Positions 18,554 to 30,080 of a DNA stretch of 32,864 bases are shown in pieces; the first letter of the stretch is position 1; the number at the start of each line of letters is the position of its first letter. The stretch covers positions 1 through 32,864 of IMG/VR virus record IMGVR_UViG_3300048588_000170; one strand, written 5' to 3'. The stretch comes from a virus. The position numbers and the translations under genes were made by a program. The notes beneath the pieces were generated by a model. The model searched no databases and was not told where the DNA came from. It saw only the letters and a list, made by a program, of their open reading frames with translations.

Positions 18554-20632
18554 TCAAGTGATCGACGTTGCCAGGCTGAACGCGGCACCGTAGCGGAGCG
18601 CCACGTCGATGCTGGTGATGGCGCGGATGCCGATGATGCCGGCCTGGAAGTTGGCATACGGGTTCACGTCAACCTGCAGCACACCCCACTCGCCCACGAT
18701 CACCTGCGACCAGTCACCGAACAGCATGTTGGCCGTCGGGAGCTGCAGGGACGACATGGCCTGGAAACCGGCCATCGTGCCGTCCCAGACGTTGCCGGCC
18801 CACAGCGGCGTGTCGGTGTTGCTGAACCGGGCGCGCTGCATCATCAGCGCCGCGACGGCAGGCGTGGTGACGTAACCACCAGCCGCCGGCATGACGTTGG
18901 CTGCAGCGACATCAGTCTGGAACTCCAGCACGCCCGCGTAGGCGAGCGAGGTGCCCGTGACTGAGCCGACGCCGGAAGTCCCGATGATGCCCTGCGGCTG
19001 ACCGCTGCCACCCGAACCCGAGATCACGCCGCTGTCAACCGCCGTTGCGGTAACGGCCGCGAGATCAGCGGTAACCAGCCCCTCAGCACCCGGAGACGAC
19101 TGCAGCAGAAGCTGCCGGCTGATCTCGGTGTAGGCGCCGACCGACTTCGGCGAAAGCGCGACCTGTTGGAAGGTCTGCGCCGACTCGGTGATGGTCGAGG
19201 CTTCGTTGGCGAGCCAGACCGCAGTTGCAGCACCACTCTGGCGCGGGATCGTCACATTGCCCTGCAAACCGGGCAGGCGACGGGCGCCCATGCGATATGC
19301 GACCGACCGATTCCGCAGGATGTCGATGAAGCCGACGTTTACGGTATCGACCAGGTAGCCACCGGCACCAGCACTTGCGGCCGTCAGGTCGCGAGACAGG
19401 CGCGACACCGGCACTTCGACCGGACGGGTCATCACATCGTAGGGGATGAAGAACGTGTTGGGGTCGGCCATCTTCTGCAGGCGCTTGGCGATCTCGCGGG
19501 TACACTCCAGCTCGAAGCCAGCCTGCGTCCAGTTCTTGTCGGCCGCAGCCTGCACAGCCCGGAACAGGCTGAACTGACGAACCTCACGCGGCGACAGGCC
19601 GAGATCGGTGACGGGCTTGGCGTTGACCTGCCGCTGCTCGACGATCTTGAGCAAATCCTCGGCGACTTCATCGATGCTCTGGCCAGTGCCGACCCAGTGC
19701 AAACGGACGCTTTCGTCGATCTTGTTGGCGCGACAGAGCTTCTCGATGGCACTGATGCGCTGTTTCTCGAACTCGCTGCCGGCACGTGACTGCTCACCCG
19801 CTACGATGCGGGTATCTTCGGCGCTTACGCCCGCCGAGGCATTGGTTACTTCAGGCATGGTCGTGGTCTCCTCGGCGATTTCCGCCAGTTGTTTACGTCG
19901 TGTGAGCCAGGGCGCGGTATGCGCCTCAGCGGTTTTGGTTTCTGTCGTGGATACAGCCGCGGGCTGCGCCTGCGTTGGCGCGCCTTCCGCCTCGCGGCCG
20001 ACACCGACGGTCGGATCAGCAGGGACGGTGACGAGGCTGTTTTCGTAGGGTTCCCAGTCCATCACGCGGAAAACTGGTGTTTTGTCGGCCGCCCGCTCAA
20101 TCGGCTGCCCGTGCGCCTCATCGAGCGCACGCAGGAACGCGGCCCGGTCATGCGTGCCGGTCTCCGCGAAACGCCGCATGACGCTGCGGAACTGGCGGCA
20201 GTCGTGCTCGATGTGAAGCTCGGCGCCGTCCTTCTTCGTCGTGACCTCAACGATCTTGTGGATGATGTAGCCGACAGATGCTTTGGTCAGGACACCGGAC
20301 TTGACCAGCGCGATGGTGTCGCGGCCGTCCTGCGTGGCCGCCGTGAGGCGCACGGTGCCGCGCACCTTGCCATCCTCAGCGACGACCGAACCGCCGACAT
20401 GCACGCCGCGCAGTTGGTTCCAGTCATGGTTGAAGAGCACTGGCGCGTCATCGTTCAGCCGGTCCAGGCGCACCGATCCCGGCTTGCAGTCCAGCACCTC
20501 GATCCCGAACCAGCGTTCATAGGGCTGCTCGGACGCGAAGGCCATGTCGACAAGGCGGTCGCCATCCTCTGAATCAGCATCTGTCGCCCGCGCCTCGATC
20601 TTCGCGAACCGGTTTAGCGTGAGTTGCTTCAT
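18554..20632 (-). CDS. Prohead protease - major capsid protein fusion (HK97 type)
   Basis: A 692-residue fusion. Residues 1-210 are the S78-type prohead protease: NHDWN supplies His69 and LTKASVGY supplies Ser119. The family's C-terminal phrase appears as WEPYENSLVTVPADP (193-207), after an insert of roughly 55 residues following the serine. A polar linker (210-258) precedes Met259, from which a delta-like helical region and an HK97-fold capsid protein run to the end (GGYLVDTVNVGFIDILRNRS; VWLANEASTITESAQTF). GAGGAG lies nine bases before Met259 (19858), so a separate 434-residue capsid protein may be made. It overlaps the portal stop and is bracketed by two terminators. Confidence 0.92.
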   Translation of the reverse strand: MKQLTLNRFAKIEARATDADSEDGDRLVDMAFASEQPYERWFGIEVLDCKPGSVRLDRLNDDAPVLFNHDWNQLRGVHVGGSVVAEDGKVRGTVRLTAATQDGRDTIALVKSGVLTKASVGYIIHKIVEVTTKKDGAELHIEHDCRQFRSVMRRFAETGTHDRAAFLRALDEAHGQPIERAADKTPVFRVMDWEPYENSLVTVPADPTVGVGREAEGAPTQAQPAAVSTTETKTAEAHTAPWLTRRKQLAEIAEETTTMPEVTNASAGVSAEDTRIVAGEQSRAGSEFEKQRISAIEKLCRANKIDESVRLHWVGTGQSIDEVAEDLLKIVEQRQVNAKPVTDLGLSPREVRQFSLFRAVQAAADKNWTQAGFELECTREIAKRLQKMADPNTFFIPYDVMTRPVEVPVSRLSRDLTAASAGAGGYLVDTVNVGFIDILRNRSVAYRMGARRLPGLQGNVTIPRQSGAATAVWLANEASTITESAQTFQQVALSPKSVGAYTEISRQLLLQSSPGAEGLVTADLAAVTATAVDSGVISGSGGSGQPQGIIGTSGVGSVTGTSLAYAGVLEFQTDVAAANVMPAAGGYVTTPAVAALMMQRARFSNTDTPLWAGNVWDGTMAGFQAMSSLQLPTANMLFGDWSQVIVGEWGVLQVDVNPYANFQAGIIGIRAITSIDVALRYGAAFSLATSIT
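19856..19872 (-). promoter_or_regulatory. Internal ribosome binding site and start for free capsid protein
   Basis: On the minus strand GAGGAG is followed by nine bases and the ATG of codon 259, MPEVTN. The start lies exactly between the protease part and the capsid part. An independent start would supply capsid subunits in excess of protease, as lambda does with C/Nu3. The SD spacing is slightly long, so the evidence is suggestive. Confidence 0.45.
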
Positions 20633-26664: not shown

Positions 26665-27017
26665 CCCTGCGCGCTCTCCCGCAGGCGGAAACCGAGCAGC
26701 GGCCAGACCTTCTCGACCGCCTTCTTGCGGGCAATCTGGCGACCGATCTCGGCGTCGAAGTTCTCGGGGCTGGCGCAGGCCGACTCGCCGGTGACGGTGA
26801 AGCCGTTGCGCAGGATCAGTACGCAGAAGGTCAGCAGAGCCAAGGGGGGGAGCGGATCGCAGCCGTATCGGGCGTCATCGCCGGTTCGAGCACCGACAAC
26901 GCCGTTCGCCGCCGTGAAGTAATACTCGCTGGCGATCTCCGCCTCGATGTCAGCCGCCGTGACTCGCGGGGCGGTCAAGCCCTTGGCCTCGATCAGCTCT
27001 CCGATGGTCTTGTTCAT
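26661..27017 (-). CDS. Gp49-family protein, Acb2-like anti-CBASS candidate
   Basis: A 118-residue protein with the family core IEAEIASEYYFTAANGVV, LLTFCVLILRNGFTVTGES, ACASPENFDAEIGRQIARKK and the closing VWPLLGFRLRE. This is the phage Gp49/66 family (PF13876), in which Acb2 of Pseudomonas phage PaMx33 binds cyclic di- and trinucleotides and so blocks CBASS immunity. The ATG at 27017 is chosen because it overlaps the preceding stop (ATGA) and fits the family's usual length. The resemblance is to the whole family; whether this copy binds cyclic nucleotides is inference. Confidence 0.85.
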   Translation of the reverse strand: MNKTIGELIEAKGLTAPRVTAADIEAEIASEYYFTAANGVVGARTGDDARYGCDPLPPLALLTFCVLILRNGFTVTGESACASPENFDAEIGRQIARKKAVEKVWPLLGFRLRESAQG

Positions 27018-27781
27018 GGTCGTGTCTCCCGTTTGTTGTTGGTAAGCATCAGTTCGAGCCGAGCCAGCGCATTCCATGCGAGGTGGGCGGCGTGAGGCAG
27101 TCCGGATCCAGCGTCGGCCGGCTCGATCGGTTCCGCAAGGAAATGGCGAAGCATCGCTTCGGTATAGCGGGCCTGACCGTCGGGCACTGACTGCCAGCCG
27201 TTCGGTGAATACTTCGCCGCGCCATGCGTGGCTACCCTGCCAACCATCTCCAGCGCGCGAGCAAAACCGTGGAACACCAGACTGAGCTGGGTCTTGCCAG
27301 CGTCGAGCTTCGCGCCGGGAACATGTGCCGGCGTTCCACGTGGATCAGCCTCGGTCTTCCGGACCTGAATGTCCTTCAGGGTCTTCGGCTTCGTTGGCGG
27401 GATCGCCTTGCTCTTGCAGTCCTGGCATGTGCGCTGTGCGTTGCCGGTTGGCACGTAGTCCTTGCCGCACTGGAAACAGCGGCGGGTCTTGCGGGCTTCC
27501 GGTTTCGATGCCGCCCTCGTGGTGGCCAGCTTCATCCGCCATCGCTCCTGCTCGGCGACTTTGGTGCCGTGATCCGCGCAGTATTTCCGCTGGGCGTTCG
27601 ATGGCTCGAAGACCGTGGTGCAGCCGGGATGCTGGCAGGTCTTGCGCGTCTGAGCCGGCGCGTCTTCGTACTTCGGGAAACCGGGATCTCCGGGCCGCAG
27701 GATCTTCACTGGACCCGCGCCATTGGTAGCCCTGCTGGACTGACCGGCCGACATATCCGAGTCTGGCAATCCGCTTCTCAT
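27014..27781 (-). CDS. Zinc-ribbon protein fused to dATP/dGTP pyrophosphohydrolase-like domain
   Basis: A 255-residue protein. The N-terminal half has two cysteine clusters, C49/C54/C68/H71 and C102/C105/C119/C122, that should each bind zinc. The C-terminal half (from about 155) has GAKLDAGKTQLSLVFHGFAR, VATHGAAKYSPNGWQ, YTEAMLRHFL and GLPHAAHLAWNALARLEL. This fits the phage dATP/dGTP diphosphohydrolase N-terminal family (PF18909), with Glu178, His187, Glu209, His230 and His233 as possible metal ligands. It might adjust the nucleotide pool or bind DNA through its ribbons. No PurZ-like gene is in the window. ATGA overlap with both neighbours. Confidence 0.72.
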   Translation of the reverse strand: MRSGLPDSDMSAGQSSRATNGAGPVKILRPGDPGFPKYEDAPAQTRKTCQHPGCTTVFEPSNAQRKYCADHGTKVAEQERWRMKLATTRAASKPEARKTRRCFQCGKDYVPTGNAQRTCQDCKSKAIPPTKPKTLKDIQVRKTEADPRGTPAHVPGAKLDAGKTQLSLVFHGFARALEMVGRVATHGAAKYSPNGWQSVPDGQARYTEAMLRHFLAEPIEPADAGSGLPHAAHLAWNALARLELMLTNNKRETRP

Positions 27782-28311: not shown

Positions 28312-28939
28312 GGCGTTCCCTCTTGTTGATTTGGCGCACCAGAACAGCCCTTGTCCGCACCAGAGAAACGATCTCCTTCGGGTAGCGGTGGACGCTGTTG
28401 CGGCGCATGTTCTCTGCCCTCGATAGCAGCTCGAGGTTATCCAGGCAGACGTTCAGGCGGTTCCCATCTTTGAACACGACGATGTGCCCTTCTGGGATCC
28501 GCCCGTGAGCCTGTTCCCACACAATGGCGTGAACGGCTTTCCAGTCGCGTGGTGTGTAGCCGGTGTCAGTCAGCTTGCGCTGCAGGATGCCGTCCCTGGT
28601 CACCCGCTCGCTACCAATCGGCAGCCACGTGTGCGGCCTGGTACCAGGCTTGAATTGCGTCGTGACGGAGAGGCCACCGGATTGCCAGCCCTTCATGCCG
28701 GCATTCCACGGACGCTGGCCCTTCGCGAACCGGCAGGCGGCGCCGGTACTGCCATCGAGGCGGTTTGCCGCCGGGCTCGACAGATACTCGGGCGTTTTCC
28801 GGAGGCCCAGATCGTTGGCACGACGGTAGATCGCCAGGACCGTGCAACCGATTTCCTCCACCAGAGCCTTCGTGACCTCGTGCGGATACCGTCGACGAAG
28901 GATCGCGTCCTGCTCCGGTGTCCACCGCACGCCCCTCAT
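28292..28939 (-). CDS. HNH endonuclease with N-terminal DNA-binding domain
   Basis: A 215-residue protein. The N-terminal 50 residues (RWTPEQDAILRRRYPHEVTK, then LAIYRRANDLGL) look like a SANT/Myb-type helix-turn-helix. The C-terminal part has the HNH_3 signature: WKAVHAIVWEQAHGRIPEGH, IVVFKDGNRLNVCLDNLELL, SRAENMRRN. This build is typical of free-standing phage HNH nucleases, some of which act as homing enzymes. I chose the ATG at 28939, which overlaps the Ref-like stop (ATGA), over a GTG three codons upstream. Confidence 0.83.
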   Translation of the reverse strand: MRGVRWTPEQDAILRRRYPHEVTKALVEEIGCTVLAIYRRANDLGLRKTPEYLSSPAANRLDGSTGAACRFAKGQRPWNAGMKGWQSGGLSVTTQFKPGTRPHTWLPIGSERVTRDGILQRKLTDTGYTPRDWKAVHAIVWEQAHGRIPEGHIVVFKDGNRLNVCLDNLELLSRAENMRRNSVHRYPKEIVSLVRTRAVLVRQINKRERREKQDQ

Positions 28940-29310
28940 GCCGCGCACCGCTCATACGCCGCAATCAGGTCGTTCTGCATCTCGAGCAGCACCTGCTCAG
29001 TACCAAACCGCGCCTCGAATTCTGGCCGGTCGTGCGCGAGACTGGGGCCGTAGATCCGGGTGGCTGCTGCGATCGTCAGTTGCGCGATATGCCCTGCAAT
29101 CCGGGTGGTCGGTGGTTCGCCAGCGTGAAACCACGGGTGCAGGTAGATCGTGGCGTCATGCCCGATCCGTCGACCACCCCGGAGCAGGTGGTGCACATGT
29201 CCCGGTGTGCCAGGTCGCTGGAAGTACACCGAGCAGATCACGCAGCCGATTTCCTGCATCGCTGCAAACCGGGCGCGGTGCGCGGCGGTGATTTTCTCCG
29301 TCGGTCCCAT
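28936..29310 (-). CDS. Ref-family RecA-dependent nuclease-like protein
   Basis: A 124-residue protein. It has MQEIGCVICSVYFQRPGTPG, then HVHHLLRGGRRIGHDATIYL, HPWFHAG and a closing YGPSLAHDRPEFEARFGTEQ. These match the Ref family (PF16786), HNH-like enzymes that cut DNA in RecA-made displacement loops and raise recombination. The two cysteines of CVIC and the histidines of HVHH and HPWFH are expected metal or catalytic residues. It lies directly after the replication initiator, in place of a helicase loader, and its start touches the initiator's stop. Confidence 0.84.
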   Translation of the reverse strand: MGPTEKITAAHRARFAAMQEIGCVICSVYFQRPGTPGHVHHLLRGGRRIGHDATIYLHPWFHAGEPPTTRIAGHIAQLTIAAATRIYGPSLAHDRPEFEARFGTEQVLLEMQNDLIAAYERCAA

Positions 29311-30080
29311 CAGGCCACCGCCGCCTGATGCTGGCGCTTGCTCGCCTCGACTCTGGCGAGCTGCGCCACGCCGATCCGCGCGTCGAGCTGCGCGAGCGTT
29401 TCGCCTGGTCGCATCGGATCGATGCCGAGGTTTCGTGCCGAGCTGTTGGCAACGCGCACCTCCCTCTCGTCCGGGCTCGTGTCAGGCCGGGCCGGCCTTG
29501 AGCCGGGCCCGTGCCGGGCACTAACCGGTTCAGATACTTGGTTAGTAAGGATAGGATTGTCCGAACCCCGTTCACCCCTCAAAGGGCCTCCGTTCACCCG
29601 TACCCCCGAACCCCGTTCGCCCCATGTGTCGTTCCGTTCACCCGTTGGGGCCGAAATCACGGGCGAACCCTGTTCAGGGGTCAGGGGTGAACGTGGTTCA
29701 CCTGTGGCCGGTTCTTGATGTTTTTCCCCAACAGTGGCGCGGTCTGCAGAGGCACATTCCGCGACAGGTGAACGTGGTTCACCCCTGAACTCATCCGGCA
29801 TGTCGGCGGGCAACTTCTCGATGTAGATCTGGAAGATCCACACGTAACCCCGATTGACGGGCTTCTTGCCAACCCGGGCGGTTACACCCATCTGCTCCAG
29901 GCGCAGGATCACCTTCTGGGCACCCCGCACACTGCACGAGGCACGCTGTGCGATCCGCTCCAGGGACAACCAGCACTGGTCATCCTCCCTGCTTGCGCTC
30001 TCTGCGATGGCGAGCGCCACCAGTTTCTCCGCGGCCGGCAACCACGACTCGATCACCGCCGATACATGCTTAAAAGCCAT
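29310..30080 (-). CDS. Replication initiator, O-like, with winged-helix domain
   Basis: A 256-residue protein starting at the ATG at 30080 (GGGGTG upstream). Residues 1-95 form a winged helix-turn-helix of the phage replication O/DnaD-like kind (VIESWLPAAEKLVALAIAES, WLSLERIAQRASCSVRGAQK, VILRLEQMGV). The middle (about 100-195) is polar, with repeated GEPRSP and GERGS phrases; its DNA holds the iteron-like repeats. The C-terminus (LDARIGVAQLARVEASKRQH) may contact the host machinery. Lambda O has the same plan: N-terminal DNA binding, origin within the gene, C-terminal partner contact. No P- or DnaC-like gene follows. Confidence 0.8.
   Translation of the reverse strand: MAFKHVSAVIESWLPAAEKLVALAIAESASREDDQCWLSLERIAQRASCSVRGAQKVILRLEQMGVTARVGKKPVNRGYVWIFQIYIEKLPADMPDEFRGEPRSPVAECASADRATVGEKHQEPATGEPRSPLTPEQGSPVISAPTGERNDTWGERGSGVRVNGGPLRGERGSDNPILTNQVSEPVSARHGPGSRPARPDTSPDEREVRVANSSARNLGIDPMRPGETLAQLDARIGVAQLARVEASKRQHQAAVA
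29521..29784. repeat. Iteron-like repeats and AT-richer element: candidate replication origin
   Basis: GTTCRCCC occurs as direct repeats at 29570-29577, 29592-29599, 29615-29622 and 29636-29643, spaced 22, 23 and 21 bases, about two helical turns. An inverted copy lies at 29661-29668, and two identical 17-base palindromes GGTGAAC-GTG-GTTCACC lie at 29686-29702 and 29767-29783. Next to the direct repeats, 29521-29562 is AT-richer and has an inverted repeat CTAACC/GGTTAG. Iterons beside an AT-rich element within the initiator gene mirror the lambda origin. Confidence 0.66.

Follow-up and report, generated by a model that had tools for sequence, protein, structure and literature searches.

The virus record IMGVR_UViG_3300048588_000170 was analysed over its positions 1 to 32,864 (in the following, the window, i.e., the whole stretch of 32,864 bases; the record may be incomplete). 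Its minus strand encodes a replication initiator of 256 amino acids (29310..30080, ATG start), and very probably this gene also carries the putative binding sites at which its own protein starts replication. That is, we consider it highly probable that the phage's replication origin is embedded in the initiator gene according to the plan of the lambda O gene. An earlier note on this DNA had proposed such an origin with a different iteron, a proposal now supported by an O-like profile match and by linker repeats beside an AT-rich stretch. Beyond this, the linker can likely be read as a dual code: palindromic iterons with lineage-specific half-sites and a spacing of about 22 base pairs (bp) are fixed as DNA, the linker peptide passively results from translating them, and the step of 21-24 bp avoids an in-frame stop. 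This assessment draws on computed evidence for gene identity, sites, codon bias, frame behaviour and the conservation of the DNA in relatives.

With regard to gene identity, the product matches the Pfam family HTH_36 (E=5.5e-8, 32.9 bits given a cut-off of 25) with residues 14-65, i.e., the winged-helix DNA-binding domain is located at 29886..30041 on the minus strand. Among the PHROG profiles, phrog_391 ('replication initiation O-like', 6.9e-10) and phrog_270 ('replication initiation protein', 6.3e-8) are matched. Structure prediction provides a confident model of a winged helix across residues 1-98 (mean predicted local distance difference test score, pLDDT, of 90.4). No match to PF04492 (Phage_rep_O) is found at E<=0.1; this family is matched above cut-off by two loci that carry another palindrome. 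A profile search with the initiator among solved structures returned general winged-helix regulators only, and most fold matches of the model are common winged helices with tied Z scores. Searching with the whole protein, we found no relative in genomes, no match in plasmids and a single near-identical locus in viral contigs.

The iterons occupy the linker of the initiator, about 300-520 bp inside the gene. As stated in the earlier note, four direct GTTCRCCC repeats are present on the plus strand with steps of 22, 23 and 21 (29570, 29592, 29615 and 29636); the octamer recurs at 29777, and inverted copies are found at 29661 and 29685. The whole window holds 9 matches compared to 3.0 expected, and 0/100 shuffles reach 9. 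The inverted copy and the two identical 17-base palindromes that the earlier note had listed besides the direct repeats exist as well, but the separation of the two groups does not hold: the octamers are the arms (half-sites) of imperfect palindromes GGTGAAC-N3-GTTCACC, such that octamers and 17-mers represent one kind of site. Palindromes centred at 29568, 29590, 29613, 29670, 29694 and 29775 score 9 to 14 out of 14. The two perfect copies are located at 29767..29783 (translated as GEPRSP) and at 29686..29702 (identical, 17 bases). They are followed in gene direction by an iteron with 11/14 consensus positions (29662..29678), a mere half-site on the plus strand (29636..29643, peptide GERN), a site of 10/14 (29605..29622, GERGSG), a half-site of 9/14 in another reading frame (29582..29599, VNGG) and a site of 11/14 (29560..29577, GERGSD).

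An AT-rich stretch (29521..29560) borders the iterons on their 3' (gene-distal) side and is a candidate unwinding element; its GC content of 0.40 ranks among the lowest 0.16% of the window's 40-bp stretches. This element does contain the inverted repeat ascribed to it, yet the resulting hairpin is no more stable than those of shuffled sequences (z -1.2). A GC-rich inverted repeat (29483..29522) adjoins the stretch and shows a DNA fold of z -2.6 (1/200 shuffles as good).

To what extent the palindrome marks initiator genes was assessed by searches with the DNA alone. One perfect palindrome yields at least 119 loci in viral contigs. Among the matches listed, 13 loci have two or more cores or at least six half-sites in the vicinity, and for all 13 the palindrome is inside a winged-helix initiator-type open reading frame (ORF), where L011 and L053 were assigned through near-identity to L069. 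When two palindromes are required, 42 viral loci are found. For 21 of these, the surrounding ORF matches the winged-helix profile (E<0.01), and three show other or weaker initiator-type Pfam matches (L125 Phage_rep_O, L114 and L132 HTH_36, all below cut-offs; L114 also Phg_2220_C above cut-off). One further locus (L152) was assigned as initiator by eye, and two (L139, L154) are ambiguous. Collagen-like fibre genes hold 15/42 loci (GxQGFQG; L126, L128, L130, L134, L136, L138, L141, L142, L145, L146, L149, L153 and L156-L158), in which the palindrome pair probably arises through codon repeats.

In genome contigs, two palindromes are found at 75 loci, six of which are in winged-helix profile ORFs, with L170 added by eye. 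Many of the others look intergenic or operator-like, and outside phages the palindrome is thus not a diagnostic mark on its own. Outside winged-helix ORFs, the pair recurs within one Deltaproteobacteria metagenome-assembled genome (L160, L164, L181, L189, L190, L194, L219) and at Rhodococcus loci (e.g., L178, L205), as if it were a regulon operator there.

These genome loci bear on the alternative that survives best, i.e., that the sites are autoregulatory operators by which the winged-helix protein represses its own gene or controls copy number, with the origin being located elsewhere. N3-centred palindromes are typical of operators too, and the genome-contig pairs are mostly found outside initiator genes. 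The window's sites, however, lie some 300-520 bp into the gene and away from the promoter, they adjoin the AT-rich stretch, and relatives show arrays of up to nine sites with steps of about 22 bp. Furthermore, the genes fit replication-initiator families: within an alignment of 43 proteins (Burkholderia phage KS9 and the ambiguous L139 included), 38/43 match phrog_270, 37/43 phrog_391 and 36/43 HTH_36. We therefore consider operators in place of an embedded origin improbable.

Next to its position, the codon usage of the array is peculiar. Third-position GC content is 0.47 for iteron codons compared to 0.82 for winged-helix codons, 0.76 for the rest of the initiator gene and 0.78 for other genes of the window (6,282 codons, 11 genes). 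When the initiator is recoded synonymously 10,000 times using the window's own codon use, neither both perfect palindromes nor seven octamers are ever obtained (0/10,000 each), and at least four sites of score 11 are observed in 10/10,000 recodings. Codon choice at the palindrome sites runs counter to the genome bias with P=1.1e-4 per copy.

The only close relative, L002, shows 94% identity to the window over 1,979 aligned positions. For the first 297 bases of the gene, i.e., the winged-helix part, 13/13 differences are synonymous. For the 224-base iteron segment, 6 of 7 differences change the amino acid and all 7 are outside half-sites; thus, 0/85 half-site bases are changed vs 7/139 other (spacer) bases (one-sided p=0.033). 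The earlier note had named a kept peptide with synonymously varied DNA as the pattern that would speak against it, and the reverse is what we observe. We also note a block of 401 bp (29213-29613) with a single difference to L002 (29361), compared to about 6% across all aligned positions. It takes in the final iterons along with the AT-rich stretch, the initiator's 3' part and the beginning of the following gene, and may reflect either recent recombination or a larger constraint at the DNA level.

Since unrelated phages share these sites and read them in different frames, preservation seems to act on the DNA signal and not on the peptide. To count frames, initiators with less than 80% protein identity were used, which keeps 31 of 43 given for the GTGAAC class and 36 of 68 for the GGCAC class introduced below. 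Within the 31 initiators with GTGAAC iterons, 53 sites are read in frame 0 (VNxVH), 70 in frame 1 (xExxSP, i.e., GExxSP) and 9 in frame 2 (the rare reading TxFT, e.g., TTFT), and 27/31 initiators use more than one frame for the same iteron DNA. Frame-2 sites have to lose the TGA of GTGAAC, since it would be a stop codon there; in 6/6 inspected frame-2 sites TGA is altered and the other site bases are largely kept.

This restriction also manifests in the spacing. Considering steps of 20-24 bp, those leaving frame 0 are of length 22 in 26/31 cases, while those leaving frame 1 are of length 23 in 17/26 and of length 22 in 1/26 cases (22 vs 23, p=2.8e-10). For GTGAAC iterons, the rule thus gives a step of 22 behind VNxVH sites and of 23 behind GExxSP sites. 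The window's steps in gene direction are +21 (frame 1 to 1), +23 (1 to 0) and +22 (0 to 1), i.e., its 22/23/21 spacing can be explained by keeping the TGA stop inside GTGAAC out of frame.

If the stop is the cause, a stop-free iteron class should escape the restriction, which we predicted for GGCAC-N3-GTGCC (seen in KS9, L283 and L259) before its loci were analysed. We found 107 such loci, 68 of them in winged-helix ORFs and 36 distinct. As predicted, this class uses all three frames (31, 46 and 82 sites). A step of 22 from frame 1 is the commonest in the GGCAC class (19/27, vs the 1/26 of the GTGAAC class), and 39/79 of its steps end in frame 2, compared to 2/62 for GTGAAC iterons (p=3e-10). 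This stop-avoiding spacing rule, tested on two iteron classes, is the newer part of our reading.

The frame counts also leave little room for a second alternative, in which selection acts on the peptide repeat GEPRSP/GERGS, e.g., because it serves as a flexible linker or binds a protein, with the DNA palindrome as a by-product. The window does contain exactly two copies of GEPRSP, and relatives have similar peptides. However, this explanation is already contradicted by relatives that translate the same DNA as VNxVH or TTFT, it does not fit site codons that oppose the genome bias, and the spacer changes of L002 mostly alter amino acids while the half-sites are kept. We rate it as very improbable and side with the earlier note's claim that the repeats set the GERGS/GEPRSP peptides, given that relatives keep the DNA repeat and change the peptide read from it. 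Least probable of all is chance or a simple tandem duplication of a GC-rich codon run, which might explain degenerate sites and exact repeats, respectively, but is already contradicted by octamer counts reached in 0/100 window shuffles and 0/10,000 synonymous recodings as well as by successive sites that differ in frame and spacer.

We also investigated how general the plan is, using 43 distinct homologues found by protein homology (bacterial-group searches, profile cut 1e-8). Repeated palindromes were considered significant if reached in at most 5/100 codon shuffles, with the maximum over spacers taken in data and null alike. This holds for 26/43 homologues vs 1/43 neighbouring ORFs. Six of the 26 (L241-L246) are from genomes already found via the palindrome; excluding them, 20/37 are left. 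Half-sites vary widely among the homologues (e.g., CCGCAG, GTCCAG, CGGCAC, CCGAAC), and each lineage therefore seems to have its own iteron. A comparison by eye for recognition-helix residues that track the half-site gave no clear signal. GTACAG-N3-CTGTAC, tried as negative control, was rejected: 5/6 of its loci are in genes with initiator-type or winged-helix Pfam matches (L236-L240: Phage_rep_O, HTH_36-like and DnaB_2 genes; HTH_36 below cut-off for L237 and L238). It looks like a separate iteron class.

For the embedded origin, we propose the following mechanism. The N-terminal winged helix would bind each GGTGAAC-N3-GTTCACC palindrome, probably as a dimer. A dimer would suit the odd-length N3-centred palindrome; for lambda and Stx phages, dimeric O proteins are described in PMC7466680. 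The four sites that follow each other at about two helical turns (22, 23 and 21 bp) and three sites further upstream would be wrapped into a nucleoprotein complex. This complex would melt the adjacent AT-rich stretch 29521-29560, with the helicase machinery being recruited by the C-terminal part of the initiator. Selection would act on the DNA sites, with GEPRSP and GERGS as their translation.

Iteron binding and origin activity, as well as dimerisation, wrapping, melting and helicase recruitment, are inferred, and several observations weigh against this reading. All four clustered sites are degenerate, and the one at 29636 consists of a half-site only. The GC-skew check suggested in the earlier note shows no clear switch at the iteron site, and no helicase or helicase-loader (P-like) gene was recognised among the genes scanned, which are only part of the window's genes. 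The half-site test for L002 reaches only p=0.033 with a single relative, and the near-identical block shared with L002 continues past the iterons, a feature not required by the origin model itself. Finally, 17/43 homologues show no significant repeat, so that by this test not all of them follow the plan, although some of these may not be phage initiators.

Provided that the embedded origin and the dual code are true, phage DNA could be mined on a large scale for origins and for the specificities of initiators. A likely origin is assigned here to an uncultivated phage, and initiator-embedded origins become findable from DNA alone. The frame-and-spacing rule would give a cheap genome-wide reading of iterons for thousands of uncharacterised initiators, which is a prerequisite for learning which winged-helix residues read which bases.

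Some further genes of the window were characterised. The gene downstream of the initiator (28936-29310) matches the RecA-dependent nuclease family RecA_dep_nuc. In the protein of 27014-27781, a weak zinc-finger/HNH-like front is combined with the N-terminal domain of a dATP/dGTP diphosphohydrolase, and the best PHROG match is named 'endolysin; inhibits RNA polymerase'. A possible protease-capsid fusion is the single ORF at 18554-20632, which shows a match to a major head protein family and weaker matches to head maturation protease families towards its front.

Phage replication modules are reportedly treated by Weigel and Seitz (2006). RepA_N plasmid initiators (pSK41-type) are winged-helix initiators with the origin inside the rep gene, too; they are plasmid-borne, in contrast to the window's phage gene, for which the plasmid search found no sequence match. 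Among the tied fold matches of the window model is 4pt7 (titled 'Structure of initiator'; Z 8.7, root-mean-square deviation 3.8, 87 residues), which we take to be a RepA. The nearest annotated phage relative is gp46 of Burkholderia phage KS9 with 29.9% over residues 13-152. Its linker palindrome CTGGCAC-N3-GTGCCAG belongs to the GGCAC class, i.e., its half-site differs from that of the window.

An origin embedded in the initiator gene is in itself a known arrangement. Lambda, P22 and L have origins within the initiator gene and lineage-specific iterons, and P22 and L carry in the coding regions of their gene 18 different iterons, each for its own initiator (as described in PMC8022706). The window's repeat differs from these in sequence and length (L has an 11-bp repeat). 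What the window adds is an iteron for which, as for the frame-dependent spacing rule, we found no description in the open-access papers searched (titles, abstract openings). Compared to the lambda O gene with ori-lambda (and Stx phages P27 and 933W), the window likewise shows iterons about two turns apart beside an AT-rich tract. Its iteron sequence differs, its protein matches HTH_36 and not PF04492, and it has about seven sites, two of them set apart, where lambda and Stx phages have four or six. In the lambda-type replicon, iteron changes that spare the O protein sequence abolish transformation, as reported in PMC7466680.
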